Virus record (IMG/VR): IMGVR_UViG_3300049459_000063
Location: 1-30,279 of that record
Direction: 5' to 3' (one strand)
DNA: 30,279 nt
DNA from: a virus
Shown: positions 2,812 through 10,754 of the stretch, one piece after another
How positions within the stretch are numbered: position 1 is the first letter of the stretch
Layout: each line of letters starts with the position of its first letter
Notes under the pieces: generated by a model
Database searches by the model: none
What the model was told of the DNA's origin: nothing
The model's input: only the letters and a program-made list of their open reading frames with translations
Made by a program: the position numbers and the translations under genes

Positions 2812-3195
2812 TTAGCTGAGGCGGTATTGCTTACCGTCCTCGACCACATAGAAATTCACGTCGCGCAGGCGATAAACGCCACCTGGTCCACCGTGCACAA
2901 CGAAGTCGTCATAGGGCGCTTTGTCGACTCGGACCGGGAAAAGCTTGTCTGTCTGGTGGGCGTATTCGCTGCTCTTTTTGAGATGTGCATACAGCTGCTG
3001 CCCCACTGGGCGGCAGCCATCAGGGCCGTGCGCCGCTTCGAAGCCTAGAAACGCGGCGCGGGTTTCAATATTCAGGAATTCGGTACTAGCGCCGGAGAGG
3101 TCCCGGGACAGGTCATAACCGCGCGGCTTTGCCCAATCCTCGAAGGCAAACAGCAGTTCCAAGTTTTCGAGATTCTTCGTAGGTGCTTCAGACAT
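2812..3195 (-). CDS. Hypothetical early protein, 127 aa
   Basis: I do not recognise this protein. It is soluble, mixed alpha/beta by appearance, and starts MSEAPTKNLENLELLFAFED. Its C-terminus is rich in aromatic and charged residues (VYRLRDVNFYVVEDGKQYRL) and could be a small beta-rich domain. I chose the ATG at 3195 because AAAGGAGACCCTC precedes it and because longer in-frame starts would run into the upstream P-loop gene. Its spacing of 11 bases from that gene suggests one transcript and possibly a related job. Confidence 0.7.
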   Translation of the reverse strand: MSEAPTKNLENLELLFAFEDWAKPRGYDLSRDLSGASTEFLNIETRAAFLGFEAAHGPDGCRPVGQQLYAHLKKSSEYAHQTDKLFPVRVDKAPYDDFVVHGGPGGVYRLRDVNFYVVEDGKQYRLS

Positions 3196-3206
3196 GAGGG
3201 TCTCCT

Positions 3207-3497
3207 TTAAGCCTGACGCACCAGGTGAATGACAACATCCGCAAACTGCCCATCTCGGTCTATTCTCGCTTTCCAATGGTTGATCGCGTCGATTTGCTCC
3301 TGGCTGCAGTCGTCGACCAATACAGTCAGGCATCGGCCGAGTTGCTGGGCGATCGAGCGCACAAGAGCTTGAGTGGTGGCCGCTGGACCGCTGATGACCA
3401 AAGGGTGGAAACCCTGCTGTTCCAGCTCGGACTGAATCGATCGCAGCTTTGTGGTCTTGCCTGAGGCCATGGGGCCGGTTATGAGTTTGATTTGCAT
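3207..3497 (-). CDS. Small P-loop NTPase-like protein
   Basis: This 96-residue protein has a clear Walker A motif (GPMASGKTTK, residues 8-17) and a hydrophobic strand ending in two acids (CLTVLVDD, about residues 56-63) that fits Walker B. At this length it is only the core of a P-loop fold, with no obvious sensor or arginine finger. It sits directly downstream of the large replication protein, so a role as ATPase partner in phage DNA replication, or as a regulator of it, is a reasonable inference. The start is fixed by AAAGGAGAGAACC before the ATG. Confidence 0.75.
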   Translation of the reverse strand: MQIKLITGPMASGKTTKLRSIQSELEQQGFHPLVISGPAATTQALVRSIAQQLGRCLTVLVDDCSQEQIDAINHWKARIDRDGQFADVVIHLVRQA

Positions 3498-3520
3498 GGT
3501 TCTCTCCTTTCAGGGGTGTA

Positions 3521-6640: not shown

Positions 6641-7015
6641 TTAGTTGAAAGGGGCTGTCGGTTGAGGCTCGGTAGCGTCGACCAGGTGTTTGAATATCAA
6701 CACGACGGGAATGGCGAAGGACTTGCCGCTGTCTGGGTCTGTGAGCATCGCCACGGACGCACTGCTGTTCTTTAGGTCGAGGTGGGGCTGTCCACCATCG
6801 GAATGCAATTCGGCGTATGCCAAGCCCGTCAAAGTCTCGGCAAGGTAGACAGGTACTTCCAATGTTGCTTGCAGGTACGTGACGGTGCGGTTGAAGAGCT
6901 GCTGGTCATTTCCCAGGTGTTCAGCCTGGTGGCGTTGCATGTAGCAATGCGCGGCGCTCTGCATGGCGGCGCGGTACTCGCGTTCGGGGTTTTGCGCATT
7001 GGTCATCATGTTCAT
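6641..7015 (-). CDS. Hypothetical early protein, 124 aa
   Basis: I do not recognise this protein. The N-terminal half is helical (REYRAAMQSAAHCYMQRHQA), and the C-terminal half contains a likely beta-rich segment (ASVAMLTDPDSGKSFAIPVV). No membrane segment or signal is seen. It overlaps the end of the Ogr-like gene by one base, so it is translated from the same transcript. Its job is unknown. A 64-base gap separates it from the next gene downstream (6576); it contains a short GGGC...GCCC hairpin. Confidence 0.65.
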   Translation of the reverse strand: MNMMTNAQNPEREYRAAMQSAAHCYMQRHQAEHLGNDQQLFNRTVTYLQATLEVPVYLAETLTGLAYAELHSDGGQPHLDLKNSSASVAMLTDPDSGKSFAIPVVLIFKHLVDATEPQPTAPFN

Positions 7016-7296
7016 CAGGCCGTCTCCAGCTCAAGTAGGTCCATTTGTTGTTCGCCTTCCTTCCTCATCGCGTGTCTGCGAATCGCCACGGGGGCGACCG
7101 GCAGGCGAACGGACGGATTGGGCATACCGGAGGGGCTCATTTCATGAGTCATTTCGAACTCAGCTCGGACTGACCAGCCGCAGGCCTCGTTGGTGCATTG
7201 CAGGTAGGCAATACGCAGAAAAATATGCGTGCCTTCACTTGTGCGGATCCGCATTCGCCCTTGGCAATGCGGGCATACCAGTTTGTAAGTGCTCAC
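7015..7296 (-). CDS. ogr: Ogr/Delta-type zinc-finger late activator
   Basis: This 93-residue protein has the Ogr/Delta zinc-binding pattern C-X2-C-X22-C-X4-C: Cys8, Cys11, Cys34 and Cys39 (CPHC, then QCTNEAC). The family activates late-gene promoters of P2-like phages by binding a dyad upstream of the start site and contacting RNA polymerase alpha. The tail EMSPSGMPNP resembles the conserved stretch after the finger in family members. It is longer than P2 Ogr (72 residues), with a basic and Glu-rich extension. Unusually, it sits inside the early block, not next to gene D as in P2, so late activation would follow directly from early transcription. Candidate targets lie at 16280, 21191 and 28247. 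Confidence 0.85.
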   Translation of the reverse strand: MSTYKLVCPHCQGRMRIRTSEGTHIFLRIAYLQCTNEACGWSVRAEFEMTHEMSPSGMPNPSVRLPVAPVAIRRHAMRKEGEQQMDLLELETA

Positions 7297-7877: not shown

Positions 7878-8099
7878 TTAATTTGAGATCACGCCGTCTT
7901 TGATACCCAGAAGCACAGCCGCTCGGTGAGCTTCGCCTCGCAAACATTTTTTTTGACCATTCAGCACTGCATAAACAGTGCTGGGGTTGAGGTCGTGTCG
8001 TTTGGCGAAATCAGCAGCAGACAGTCCCTGCGCGACCAACTTACTTCGAGCCAGCTGTAAGGCTTGCTCCGTGATAGCTGTGTTCGGCATAGTGCTCAT
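7878..8099 (-). CDS. Cro-like HTH DNA-binding protein
   Basis: A 73-residue HTH protein. The core ARSKLVAQGLSAADFAKRHD then LNPSTVYAVLNGQKKCLRGE is a helix-turn-helix typical of small phage proteins with the LRGEAHRAAVLLGIKDG ending. It is the first gene of the leftward early transcript and lies opposite the repressor gene, the usual place of Cro (or Apl/Cox in P2 relatives). It probably represses the lysogenic promoter. The ATG at 8099 has a weak ribosome site; an internal ATG at 8090 has GAG at better spacing and may be the true start. Confidence 0.8.
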   Translation of the reverse strand: MSTMPNTAITEQALQLARSKLVAQGLSAADFAKRHDLNPSTVYAVLNGQKKCLRGEAHRAAVLLGIKDGVISN

Positions 8100-8127
8100 T
8101 CGTGTGATTTAGTGTGGAATTCTGGCG

Positions 8128-8156
8128 ATCTTGGTACAAATAATTGGGACTGTCAA
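8128..8156 (-). promoter_or_regulatory. Early leftward promoter
   Basis: On the minus strand a perfect -35 box TTGACA (8151-8156) is followed by a 17-base spacer and CAAGAT (8128-8133) as a weak -10. The start site would be near 8121, about 20 bases before the Cro-like gene. The spacer carries TTGGTAC/TTGGGAC on the plus strand, which may be operator half-sites. Confidence 0.65.
8131..8150. promoter_or_regulatory. Possible repressor operator, tandem heptamers
   Basis: TTGGTAC (8131-8137) and TTGGGAC (8144-8150) repeat in direct orientation with a 13-base period inside the early promoter spacer. Binding of the repressor or the Cro-like protein here would block the promoter. This is suggested by position only. 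Confidence 0.3.
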
Positions 8157-8176
8157 GCAATGAGGGTGCGATTTTG

Positions 8177-8524
8177 ATGACCATTGGAGCTCGGCTTCGC
8201 GAAGAACGAGCGCGGCTGGGCGTTAGCCAAACGGAATTGGCAAATGTTTGCGGTGTTAAAAAAAACACTCAGCTGAACTATGAGAAAGACGAGCGAAGCC
8301 CTGATGCCCCGTACCTGCTGCTAGCTCACAAAGCAGGGGTGGATATTTACTACGTTTTGTTCGGTGAGCCTTTACCCGCATTCGCGGATCAGCTGTCACC
8401 TGTTGAATCCGAAGTCCTGTCCTATTTTCGTAACCTGTCGGATTACGACAAAGAATCCATCCGCCGTATGGCTTATGCGATGGCTACCGTCGCAAAAGAC
8501 TCAACACCAGCACCACGTACTTAA
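8177..8524 (+). CDS. XRE-family prophage repressor, no protease domain
   Basis: This 115-residue protein has a classic XRE helix-turn-helix (IGARLREERARLGVSQTELA then VKKNTQLNYEKDERSPDA, residues 3-45) and a short C-terminal region (about 73-105) with EVLSYFRNLSDYDKESIRRM, the type of segment used for oligomerisation. It lacks a LexA/CI-type Ser-Lys autoprotease domain, so RecA cannot trigger its self-cleavage and another inducer is needed. It lies divergent from the early operon, so it is the best candidate for the lysogeny repressor. The ATG at 8177 follows GAGGGT; a TTG at 8144 is in frame but less likely. Confidence 0.88.
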   Translation: MTIGARLREERARLGVSQTELANVCGVKKNTQLNYEKDERSPDAPYLLLAHKAGVDIYYVLFGEPLPAFADQLSPVESEVLSYFRNLSDYDKESIRRMAYAMATVAKDSTPAPRT

Positions 8525-8556
8525 CAGCCATATCTAATGAGAAGGAACTTGCGTTC

Positions 8557-9123
8557 ATGTTTGGGATTACCAAAAGAACTGTGTTGGCTGCTGTACTTGC
8601 ATCATCTGTAGCGCTCTCGGCTCATGCTTTGGAGCCTCAACACTTCGATAATTTGCCTGCGATGGTCGAAGATTTCGGAGATTTTTCCGATGAAAATGGC
8701 ACGTTCAAAGTGCTGAAAGCTCAGCCCCTGCATGTGCAGTTTTCTCCGCAAGTCGTACCTGGTGACCTACCTGAAAATGTTCGATACGAGGTGCAGCGAG
8801 CCGCCCTGTACGGCGTGTATCGGACCTTCGTGCATACCTCCGCCGAGTCGGTTCAAGTCACTGCCCTCCCCATTGAACTGGAAATCAAGAATGGTGTTTC
8901 CAAAAAACTCAAGGGTCCATCGGTTGACGTGACTGTTACTCGGGCCCAAGCGTTGGCAGCTGTACAGAAGCTGATTCAGGTGAACAACCTTGCAGAATTG
9001 GTGAAGCCGGAACAGATGGGAGATATGCAGCTGGATAACTGGACCAAGAACTTCGAGGCCCTGTATTACAAGCAGCAAGGGATCGATAGGCTGCTCGCTG
9101 AATTGAAAGCGAAGCAAGGTTAA
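8557..9123 (+). CDS. Secreted protein, likely lysogenic conversion gene
   Basis: This 188-residue protein starts with a signal peptide: basic KR at residues 6-7, then a hydrophobic core ending in an AHA cleavage site after residue 24. The mature part is soluble, has no Cys, and I recognise no family. It contains VQFSPQVVPGDLPENVRYEV and an Ala/Val/Leu-rich helical C-terminus. It follows the repressor gene by 32 bases with a good ribosome site (GAAGGAA) and no promoter visible between, and a strong terminator follows it. It is therefore probably made in the lysogen and exported to the periplasm or outside, as a moron gene. Its role is unknown. Confidence 0.75.
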   Translation: MFGITKRTVLAAVLASSVALSAHALEPQHFDNLPAMVEDFGDFSDENGTFKVLKAQPLHVQFSPQVVPGDLPENVRYEVQRAALYGVYRTFVHTSAESVQVTALPIELEIKNGVSKKLKGPSVDVTVTRAQALAAVQKLIQVNNLAELVKPEQMGDMQLDNWTKNFEALYYKQQGIDRLLAELKAKQG

Positions 9124-9151
9124 GCGGGATCGTCGTCCGAGGCTCAGCGTC

Positions 9152-9180
9152 AAAAAGCCCAGCTTCTGCTGGGCTTTTTT
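9152..9180 (+). terminator. Rho-independent terminator
   Basis: AAAAAGCCCAGC, loop TTCT, GCTGGGCTTTTTT: a 12-bp stem including A-T pairs, with a T-run. It ends the repressor and secreted-protein transcript. The A-run on the other side may also let it stop leftward transcription coming out of gene D. Confidence 0.92.
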
Positions 9181-9201
9181 GTATCTGAGCGAATGCCCCC
9201 A

Positions 9202-9230
9202 TTGGCTAAATGGTTCGATATGGGTACTGT
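9202..9230 (+). promoter_or_regulatory. SOS-controlled promoter
   Basis: TTGGCT (9202-9207), a 17-base spacer, and TACTGT (9225-9230) form a sigma-70 type promoter. The -10 box overlaps the LexA site at 9227-9242. The start would be near 9237, about 25 bases before the ATG at 9262. Confidence 0.7.
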
Positions 9231-9242
9231 ATGTGCATACAG
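9227..9242. promoter_or_regulatory. LexA (SOS) box
   Basis: CTGTATGTGCATACAG matches the gamma-proteobacterial LexA consensus CTGT-N8-ACAG with palindromic flanks; only the two central bases depart from symmetry. It covers the -10 region of the promoter for the 71-residue gene, so LexA should repress that gene until DNA damage occurs. Confidence 0.9.
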
Positions 9243-9261
9243 TGACGGAGCTTGAAAGACA

Positions 9262-9477
9262 ATGAAACCGATTAGCGTCACCCCCGAAACCGCAGCCGAT
9301 GGGCTCGCTATGTTCGAGCCTATTACGAAATTGGAGCGGGAGTTGATTGTCGGCTACAGACGTTTATCCAGCGATGATCAGGAGCGCTTGCTCCAGGTGC
9401 TGCATGCATTGGTTTCTGTAACCGATGAAGGTAAGCCAAGTGCACGGTTGATGTACTGTCAGCGACACGCCTGCTAA
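9262..9477 (+). CDS. SOS-induced small protein, candidate antirepressor
   Basis: This 71-residue protein has no HTH and no membrane segment. Its residues 21-53 (ITKLERELIVGYRRLSSDDQ, then ERLLQVLHALVSV) align without gaps to residues 73-105 of the nearby repressor (LSPVESEVLSYFRNLSDYDK, then ESIRRMAYAMATV), with 9 identities and mostly conservative changes. This suggests a free copy of the repressor's oligomerisation segment that could form inactive mixed complexes. The gene is placed under a LexA box and its stop overlaps the stop of gene D on the other strand. In P2 relative 186, Tum, a LexA-controlled antirepressor, plays this role; I infer an analogous, not homologous, function. The ribosome site is GGAG upstream of ATG 9262. 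Confidence 0.75.
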   Translation: MKPISVTPETAADGLAMFEPITKLERELIVGYRRLSSDDQERLLQVLHALVSVTDEGKPSARLMYCQRHAC

Positions 9478-10754
9478 GAATGGGAGGCGACTGCCTTGCT
9501 GGAGGTCAGTCGTTTAAGCTCTCGCTCCGCAGCTCGTTTTGCCGAGGCTTTACTCTCATACAGATGTGACAGTCGTTTTGGCTTGCTCTGATCACCCTCG
9601 GTAAGTTTTTGTTGCTTACCGCTCTTCTTGTCGCGGTACCACGCGACGATTCCCGTGTAGTCCTTGGCATCGTCGGCCAGCTCCGCTACCTCGTCGCCAT
9701 CTGGCAACTTTGATTCAAGCTCAAGACTCGTGGTGAATGAGTCCGACGTGAAACTGTGTTTGACGTTGCCCCCCAGCCAGATAATGTCCGCGATTTCCTG
9801 CTTGATCCCTGTCAGGGAGTAGGTGAGCTCTGGCGTTAGATCCGGACGGCCACGCGCCAGCGAATAGCTGAGCGTTGCCGTACCGCGCTGCAGTTTGTTC
9901 CACTCTGCCCGGGCAGCGACCAGCGCGCTTTTCTGGTCGGTGTAGGAGTGCCGCAGGTCCTTGATATTGTCTCCGCCGCCGGATACCGCCTCTTTTTTTT
10001 CGGCGCTGTTGACGTCGTAGTAGAACGCCCGAACGCCGGTGTAACTATCTCGATCCGCTTGAAGGAATCGGTGCTGGTCGCCGTCCCGGCGGGTCAGGGT
10101 GATGTGCGGCAGGTTCAGTCCGCTGGCGCTGGTCGCATTGCCGATCGGCATGAACAGCAGCCTGCCGGCTTTCACTGTGGCGATCGCATCATGCTCTTGT
10201 CCCAGGCGGGAGAGCAGGTTCGCGTCTGATTCATTGGCCTGATCAAGATGCACTAGTTTGATCGCGCTGAGAGCGGCGCTTACCAGCGGGCCAAGGCCGT
10301 AGGCCCCCGCAATGGCTTGCACGACTGTCTCAATCGTTTCGTTATGCCAGCTTCGTTCCCGTTTGACCTTCAGTCCCGCACTCATGTCCACGCTGCGCGC
10401 TCGGATGTTTAATTGGTCCGGCGCTCCGCTGTGTTCGGTCTCATCGACCGTGTATGAGCCTTTGTCGACCAGCCCTGTATCGCTCCAGCCAAGCCACAGG
10501 CGCAAGGTCGCACCCTTCGGTGGAATGACCAGGCGCCCGTCATGATCCGAAAGCGTGACATCGAGCTGGTCTGCCGCGAGTCCGCGGTTGTCGGTCAGTT
10601 CAATGCTCATCAGGCGCTTCTCGATAGCCGCCGTGATGTCGCGTCCATCGACCTCCAGCCGGCAGATCGGACGCGGGTAGGCTTTCGCTTCCCGCATTGA
10701 GGCCTGCGCATCATTCAGATAGCCATCGATCTGGCTCAGTGCCTGGTCGATCAC
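9474..10754 (-). CDS. D: Late control/tail hub protein gpD
   Basis: This 426-residue protein corresponds to P2 gpD (387 residues), the baseplate hub that connects tail tube and spike. Family signs include PRPICRLEVDGRDITAAI at the start, LTDNRGLAADQLDVTLSDHD around residue 55, and a central region with ANESDANLLSRLG followed by GRLLF. The C-terminus is longer and basic (SKPKRLSHLYESKASAKRAA). It starts at GTG 10754, overlapping the stop of gene U by 4 bases, so translation is coupled. It is the last gene of the FI-D transcript and is convergent with the SOS gene; no terminator is visible between them. Confidence 0.93.
   Translation of the reverse strand: MIDQALSQIDGYLNDAQASMREAKAYPRPICRLEVDGRDITAAIEKRLMSIELTDNRGLAADQLDVTLSDHDGRLVIPPKGATLRLWLGWSDTGLVDKGSYTVDETEHSGAPDQLNIRARSVDMSAGLKVKRERSWHNETIETVVQAIAGAYGLGPLVSAALSAIKLVHLDQANESDANLLSRLGQEHDAIATVKAGRLLFMPIGNATSASGLNLPHITLTRRDGDQHRFLQADRDSYTGVRAFYYDVNSAEKKEAVSGGGDNIKDLRHSYTDQKSALVAARAEWNKLQRGTATLSYSLARGRPDLTPELTYSLTGIKQEIADIIWLGGNVKHSFTSDSFTTSLELESKLPDGDEVAELADDAKDYTGIVAWYRDKKSGKQQKLTEGDQSKPKRLSHLYESKASAKRAAERELKRLTSSKAVASHS

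Follow-up and report, generated by a model that had tools for sequence, protein, structure and literature searches.

What is the role of a small exported protein whose gene lies directly behind the lysogeny repressor of a phage? The question is raised by the window, the whole stretch of 30,279 bases that makes up IMG/VR virus record IMGVR_UViG_3300049459_000063. Judged by its genes, among them an integrase, a primase, a BcepMu gp16-like HTH gene, a YmfL/CII-like regulator, Ogr and the gpD tail hub, the window is a P2-like (Peduoviridae) Pseudomonas phage, a virus capable of dormancy. Among named phages, Citexvirus relatives such as Dobby come nearest to it, and close relatives of its repressor are carried by Pseudomonas chromosomes, e.g. 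that of P. arsenicoxydans E3. Forty-seven bases beside the integrase (123-169) match phage regions in two records and correspond, on the minus strand, to the 3' half of a tRNA-Gly-like gene; they are the probable core of the attachment site. In the P2 layout Ogr lies at the genome end, unlike in the window, where this late activator (7015-7296, minus strand) belongs to the early operon and immediately follows the CII/YmfL-like gene. An Rfam FinP match at 2582-2657 scores under its gathering score and was disregarded.

The repressor operon and its exported gene

The features of the locus are as follows.

8100..8176, no strand assigned: divergent repressor/early-gene control region, flanked by the BcepMu gp16-like HTH gene on the minus strand (7878-8099) and by the repressor
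8177..8524, plus strand: lysogeny repressor, HTH, 115 aa from ATG (Pfam HTH_31 1.6e-6, HTH_3 1.4e-5; PHROG 8 transcriptional regulator 1.1e-13)
8540..8545, plus strand: AGAAGG, the Shine-Dalgarno sequence 11 nt ahead of the ATG of the exported gene, kept in relatives
8557..9123, plus strand: exported 188-aa protein (signal peptide 1-24, mature 25-188), from the ORF, orthologues, fold model and dN/dS
8557..8628, plus strand: Sec signal peptide with cleavage between AHA and L, read from the sequence by eye
9152..9180, plus strand: intrinsic terminator with a 12-bp stem and TTCT loop, found by folding, conserved in L002-L007 and in gene-less relatives
9227..9242, plus strand: LexA (SOS) box CTGTATGTGCATACAG, at the same place in most relatives
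9262..9477, plus strand: SOS-controlled ORF of 71 aa with homology to the C-terminal domain of the repressor, marking the far border of the slot

The first-pass annotation had described an exported gene that follows the repressor by 32 bases, with a ribosome site of its own, no visible promoter and a strong terminator behind it, and each of these elements was recovered. The gap between the two ORFs is exactly 32 bp and contains the AGAAGG motif. A consensus scan detected no sigma-70-like promoter on either strand between 7800 and 9500; the promoter and operator of the repressor are expected within 8100..8176, where the relative L007 has a perfect palindrome, GTCCCAAT-N2-ATTGGGAC, which is imperfect in the window. 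The stem-loop of the terminator, AAAAAGCCCAGC-TTCT-GCTGGGCTTTTTT, folds with a dG of -21.3 kcal/mol (z -5.0 against dinucleotide shuffles). It was missed by a simple terminator scan, probably since its T run belongs to the stem, and was revealed by folding; because the stem-loop is near-symmetrical, it possibly acts in both directions. What the Shine-Dalgarno sequence and the terminator indicate is just that the exported gene could be expressed together with the repressor. The N-terminus of the product, MFGITKRTVLAAVLASSVALSAHA followed across the cleavage point by LEP, reads by eye as a classical Sec signal with an AxA cleavage site, in agreement with the signal peptide proposed earlier for the 188-residue protein.

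Six IMG/VR relatives (L002-L007) carry full-length orthologues at 73-97% identity in the same context. Together with a low dN/dS and a high-confidence fold, they argue that the 8557-9123 ORF is real. In pairs with dS above 0.3, the dN/dS of the exported gene is 0.06-0.19, similar to that of the repressor, which indicates strong purifying selection. The gene is absent from the same place in L013, L014, L016, L017, L019 and L020, whose repressors are 63-88% identical and are followed directly by the LexA box and SOS ORF. The terminator is kept in L013, L014, L016 and L017 and is also visible in L019. L013 retains the leader AGCCATATCTAGTTAGAAGGAACT with the Shine-Dalgarno sequence of the exported gene, the gene itself being gone, and L019 retains a decayed leader in which this sequence is degraded. 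A Shine-Dalgarno sequence without its gene is most simply a deletion scar, so that at least the L013/L019 sublineage probably lost the gene by deletion. The exported gene is thus optional cargo, present or absent among close relatives, and where present it is intact, selected and non-structural. These observations support the earlier view of it as a lysogenic-conversion (moron) gene. It has the strand and the probable mRNA of the repressor, with a terminator after it and no separate promoter detected.

An exported family behind repressors

The exported protein belongs, by sequence comparison, to a previously unnamed family. We searched for its members with repressor relatives as bait and then with profiles over Pseudomonas-group genomes and IMG/VR contigs, picking start codons by eye where several were possible. 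The repressor bait yielded L021 (Pseudomonas sp. RIT-PI-S), with a 46% homologue behind a 64% repressor. Profiles added the Pseudomonas-group genomes L033, L034, L076 and L077 and the IMG/VR contigs L042-L053, and a distant member, L069, lies between a repressor and a P2-type integrase (hhalign 99.4%, E 9e-22). Each of the 25 intact family loci follows an HTH repressor of the same strand at a distance of 12-86 bp, in P2-like phages or prophages, and nearly all hosts of intact copies are Pseudomonas. The repressor linkage seen in the window therefore extends to every intact member. Within the samples searched, the one copy outside the repressor-linked slot is L078, a frameshifted remnant in a decayed setting away from any repressor. 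The family was found in 3 of 398 genomes of the genus sample and in 4 of 398 of the family sample, one of them the decayed copy. The class sample gave 0 of 369, an empty answer that proves little, and since contigs are recovered by way of exact peptide seeds, the true extent of the family may be greater.

Export is conserved in the family through three routes, as judged from the N-termini. Sec-type signals were recognized by eye in the window, L033, L042, L046 and L076, and lipobox-like signals in L043, L044, L051, L052 and L077; these signal and lipoprotein assignments include several non-canonical lipoboxes (LHGC, LQGC, SGGC). In L050 the domain is preceded by a transmembrane (TM) anchor, and in L034 by a zinc ribbon and then a TM helix. 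The use of several routes to keep a single domain on the outside of the membrane is good evidence for the envelope as the place where it acts. The envelope location suggested by the first-pass annotation accordingly finds a parallel, at the level of sequence, in every relative, with export maintained while the N-termini change.

The exported domain appears to be exchanged between repressor alleles. L044 and L051 have repressors that are 57% identical, against 94% identity in the mature domain, and share a downstream nuclease gene; the window and L006 differ by a dS of 0.10 in the repressor and of 0.43 in the exported gene. Such swapping marks the domain as cargo, and exchange that is independent of the repressor allele argues against a role as a repressor partner or a co-specific signal.

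The window protein and its homologues gave no match at or above the cut-off in Pfam, PHROGs, NCBIfam or PADLOC, the known exclusion and defence families modelled in these collections included; the domain has no match among PDB sequences and no tblastn match in INPHARED or PLSDB. An AlphaFold2 model built from 16 diverse mature domains (mean pLDDT 94.6, pTM 0.90) predicts one compact alpha/beta domain of about 165 residues, ordered as a long helix (49-70), then strands, a further helix and another pair of strands. Positions here follow A8 numbering (window protein position minus 23). Invariant positions in the 16 aligned members include D19, N24, R58, Y62, R66, H70, T71, T105, R106, Q135, D137 and W139. 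Structure prediction and remote fold search left the fold as unfamiliar as the first-pass annotation had held it: Foldseek returned nothing significant in PDB (best E 0.18) or BFVD (best E 0.073), and the best VIA score, Z 4.4, was to an unrelated fold, with nucleases below Z 4. Comparison with PDB and BFVD does not by itself prove the modelled fold new.

Possible function of the exported protein

A TM helix or a lipid anchor tethers known exclusion proteins on the outside of the cytoplasmic membrane, the soluble periplasmic exception being Glo of phage K139 (PMC3952083). The slot between cI and int in P2-related phages of the K139/PhiO18P type is an anti-phage hotspot (Rousset et al. 2022, PMC9122126), and Glo, annotated 'periplasmic protein; involved in phage exclusion', sits in that slot, in the lysogenic operon. 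Like the window protein, whose periplasmic residence is predicted, Glo of K139 (kappa; Peduoviridae, Vibrio) is a small Sec-exported protein of the periplasm and is encoded behind cI in the lysogenic operon of a P2-related phage. It differs in having 137 aa with cysteines, in lying behind orf2 and not immediately behind cI, and in its reported exclusion role, there being no such report for the window family. Homology between the two was rejected (hhalign probability 0.2%, 18 columns), and their likeness, as exported products of the repressor operon in P2-related phages, goes no further than a working resemblance. The hotspot itself resembles the window slot in holding variable cargo, defence candidates included, directly behind a P2-related repressor (PMC9122126). 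Its far border is the integrase, whereas the Pseudomonas slot ends at the LexA-controlled ORF and the gpD tail gene, and the cargo in the window is the exported domain.

Other exported or membrane-anchored phage proteins offer further parallels. Ltp of TP-J34, HK97 gp15 and P22 SieA are lysogen-linked superinfection exclusion proteins with a lipid or TM anchor, placed at or outside the cytoplasmic membrane, as would be those family members that have, in other phages, a TM anchor or a signal of the lipobox-like type. They share no detected family with these members, being set apart by their descriptions and not by sequence, and the window copy appears soluble. They are treated in PMC3952083, PMC11436027 and a reference in PMC13190303. 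Dobby gp33 and the zinc-ribbon membrane proteins of Aeromonas phage LPM4 and Pseudomonas F_HA1961sp are small exported or anchored proteins at the same or a comparable lysogeny-region position in Peduoviridae. Their domains are different, and only the zinc ribbon and TM segment of L034 match LPM4 and F_HA1961sp.

The neighbourhood of the family also contains candidates for defence. In L034, a KAP P-loop NTPase (9126-10496) matching PADLOC candidate PDC-S20 at 1.9e-83 stands directly behind the family member with zinc ribbon and TM helix, and in Collimonas L022 a PDC-S49 match (5.8e-22) follows a related repressor. In L044, L045 and L051, a secreted SNase+Excalibur nuclease gene of the repressor operon starts at the stop of the exported gene with a 4-base overlap; the nuclease could degrade incoming DNA in the periplasm. 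Dobby gp33 (L081 25930-26280), small and exported but unrelated to the family, occupies the slot behind a homologous repressor. Annotated as hypothetical only, it has a clear signal peptide, and four phage records of P. aeruginosa contain it. Near repressor slots or the decayed family copy, two more small exported proteins are encoded that look related to one another by eye (L024 5868-6308; L078, reverse strand, oriented 3002-3508).

We consider it slightly better than an even chance (about 0.5) that the exported protein serves superinfection exclusion in the envelope, being made from the repressor transcript and working like Glo. The first-pass annotation had named the envelope, superinfection and host interaction as possible targets, and among these the genomic context favours superinfection exclusion, by virtue of exclusive adjacency to repressors, three modes of export, a hotspot slot shared with Glo, nearby defence candidates, presence or absence among relatives, modular swapping and the exported protein of Dobby. 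The gene would be translated from the repressor mRNA, so that the protein would be present whenever the prophage is silent. After Sec export it would reside in the periplasm as a soluble protein, and the mature domain would act there, or on the inner membrane at its outer face, against superinfecting phages; the step blocked would probably be penetration by the tail or entry of the DNA. Residence in the envelope, a mark of superinfection exclusion, is here predicted from sequence. A fuller version of this proposal sees an undescribed superinfection-exclusion family with a new exported alpha/beta fold and interchangeable anchors. Such a family would block either penetration by the tail or entry of the DNA, and would pass as a heritable exclusion module from one repressor allele to another among P2-like Pseudomonas phages; we offer this version tentatively, at somewhat short of even odds.

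As a cargo site, the slot might just as well accommodate genes for host fitness. The exported domain may thus bring about lysogenic conversion of another kind, changing the envelope of the host or its fitness in the niche (stress, surface, competition, host interaction) with no phage as its target. Location and selection would suit any cargo gene expressed in lysogens, and the near confinement of the family to Pseudomonas prophages makes a host-specific role possible. We nevertheless regard this as rather unlikely, given the several candidate defence genes in the slot, the precedent of Glo and the finding of the family outside the repressor-linked slot only as a decayed copy. The invariable adjacency to the repressor might instead reflect a partner in the lysogeny switch, an exported signal or sensor feeding back on the repressor as in communication systems, and the cytoplasmic-type zinc ribbon and TM helix before the domain of L034 form a layout that could transmit a signal. 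A specific partner should, however, co-vary with its repressor, which the L044/L051 and L006 exchanges contradict; relatives with the same repressor type manage without the gene, and a folded domain of 165 residues is unlike a peptide signal. Such a role seems distinctly improbable.

Very improbable, too, is a mature domain that works after export as a PD-(D/E)XK-like nuclease, cutting incoming DNA in the periplasm. The weak Foldseek and VIA matches, all non-significant, include many restriction-endonuclease-like folds (HincII, Sau3AI, cap-snatching endonucleases, Cas4-like ACE1), the predicted order of helix, strands, helix and strands is compatible with such a fold, and a true secreted nuclease shares the operon in L044, L045 and L051. 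The identity is disfavoured on motif grounds, as no D...(D/E)xK motif is conserved in the 16 aligned members, and at the expected place the last strand before the second helix ends in the conserved T105-R106. Least probable of all is a gene of the lytic cycle with its own promoter, placed next to the repressor by accident. In its favour counts that the case for expression in lysogens is drawn from sequence. Against it, the gene points away from the early operon and shares the strand of the repressor, the region gave no promoter match, and the gene is followed by the terminator and then by a separately LexA-controlled ORF.

Envelope exclusion proteins encoded in repressor operons, the preferred reading here, are a recognized kind that is thinly sampled, with few folds known, and in this instance a whole unnamed family is recognizable by position alone. 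A confident model, conserved candidate residues at Arg, His and Asp positions and natural pairs of close phage relatives with and without the gene make the question directly testable. The slot between the repressor and the SOS gene in P2-like Pseudomonas phages is a suggested place to seek new exclusion genes.

The SOS-controlled ORF at the border of the slot

The 71-aa ORF behind the LexA box is related to the repressor itself. Comparison of its family with the C-terminal domain of the repressor family gives an hhalign probability of 97.1% (E 6e-11), and every member of the ORF family scores above all shuffles in both directions. Profile matches of the window repressor include no S24 or other self-cleaving peptidase domain. 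In a repressor of this kind, an SOS-induced copy of the C-terminal domain that is devoid of the DNA-binding half would be a natural decoy, and the ORF is therefore probably a decoy antirepressor induced by the SOS response. Salmonella prophages provide known examples of antirepressors under LexA control. The 71-aa ORF is possibly a more novel finding than the exported protein.
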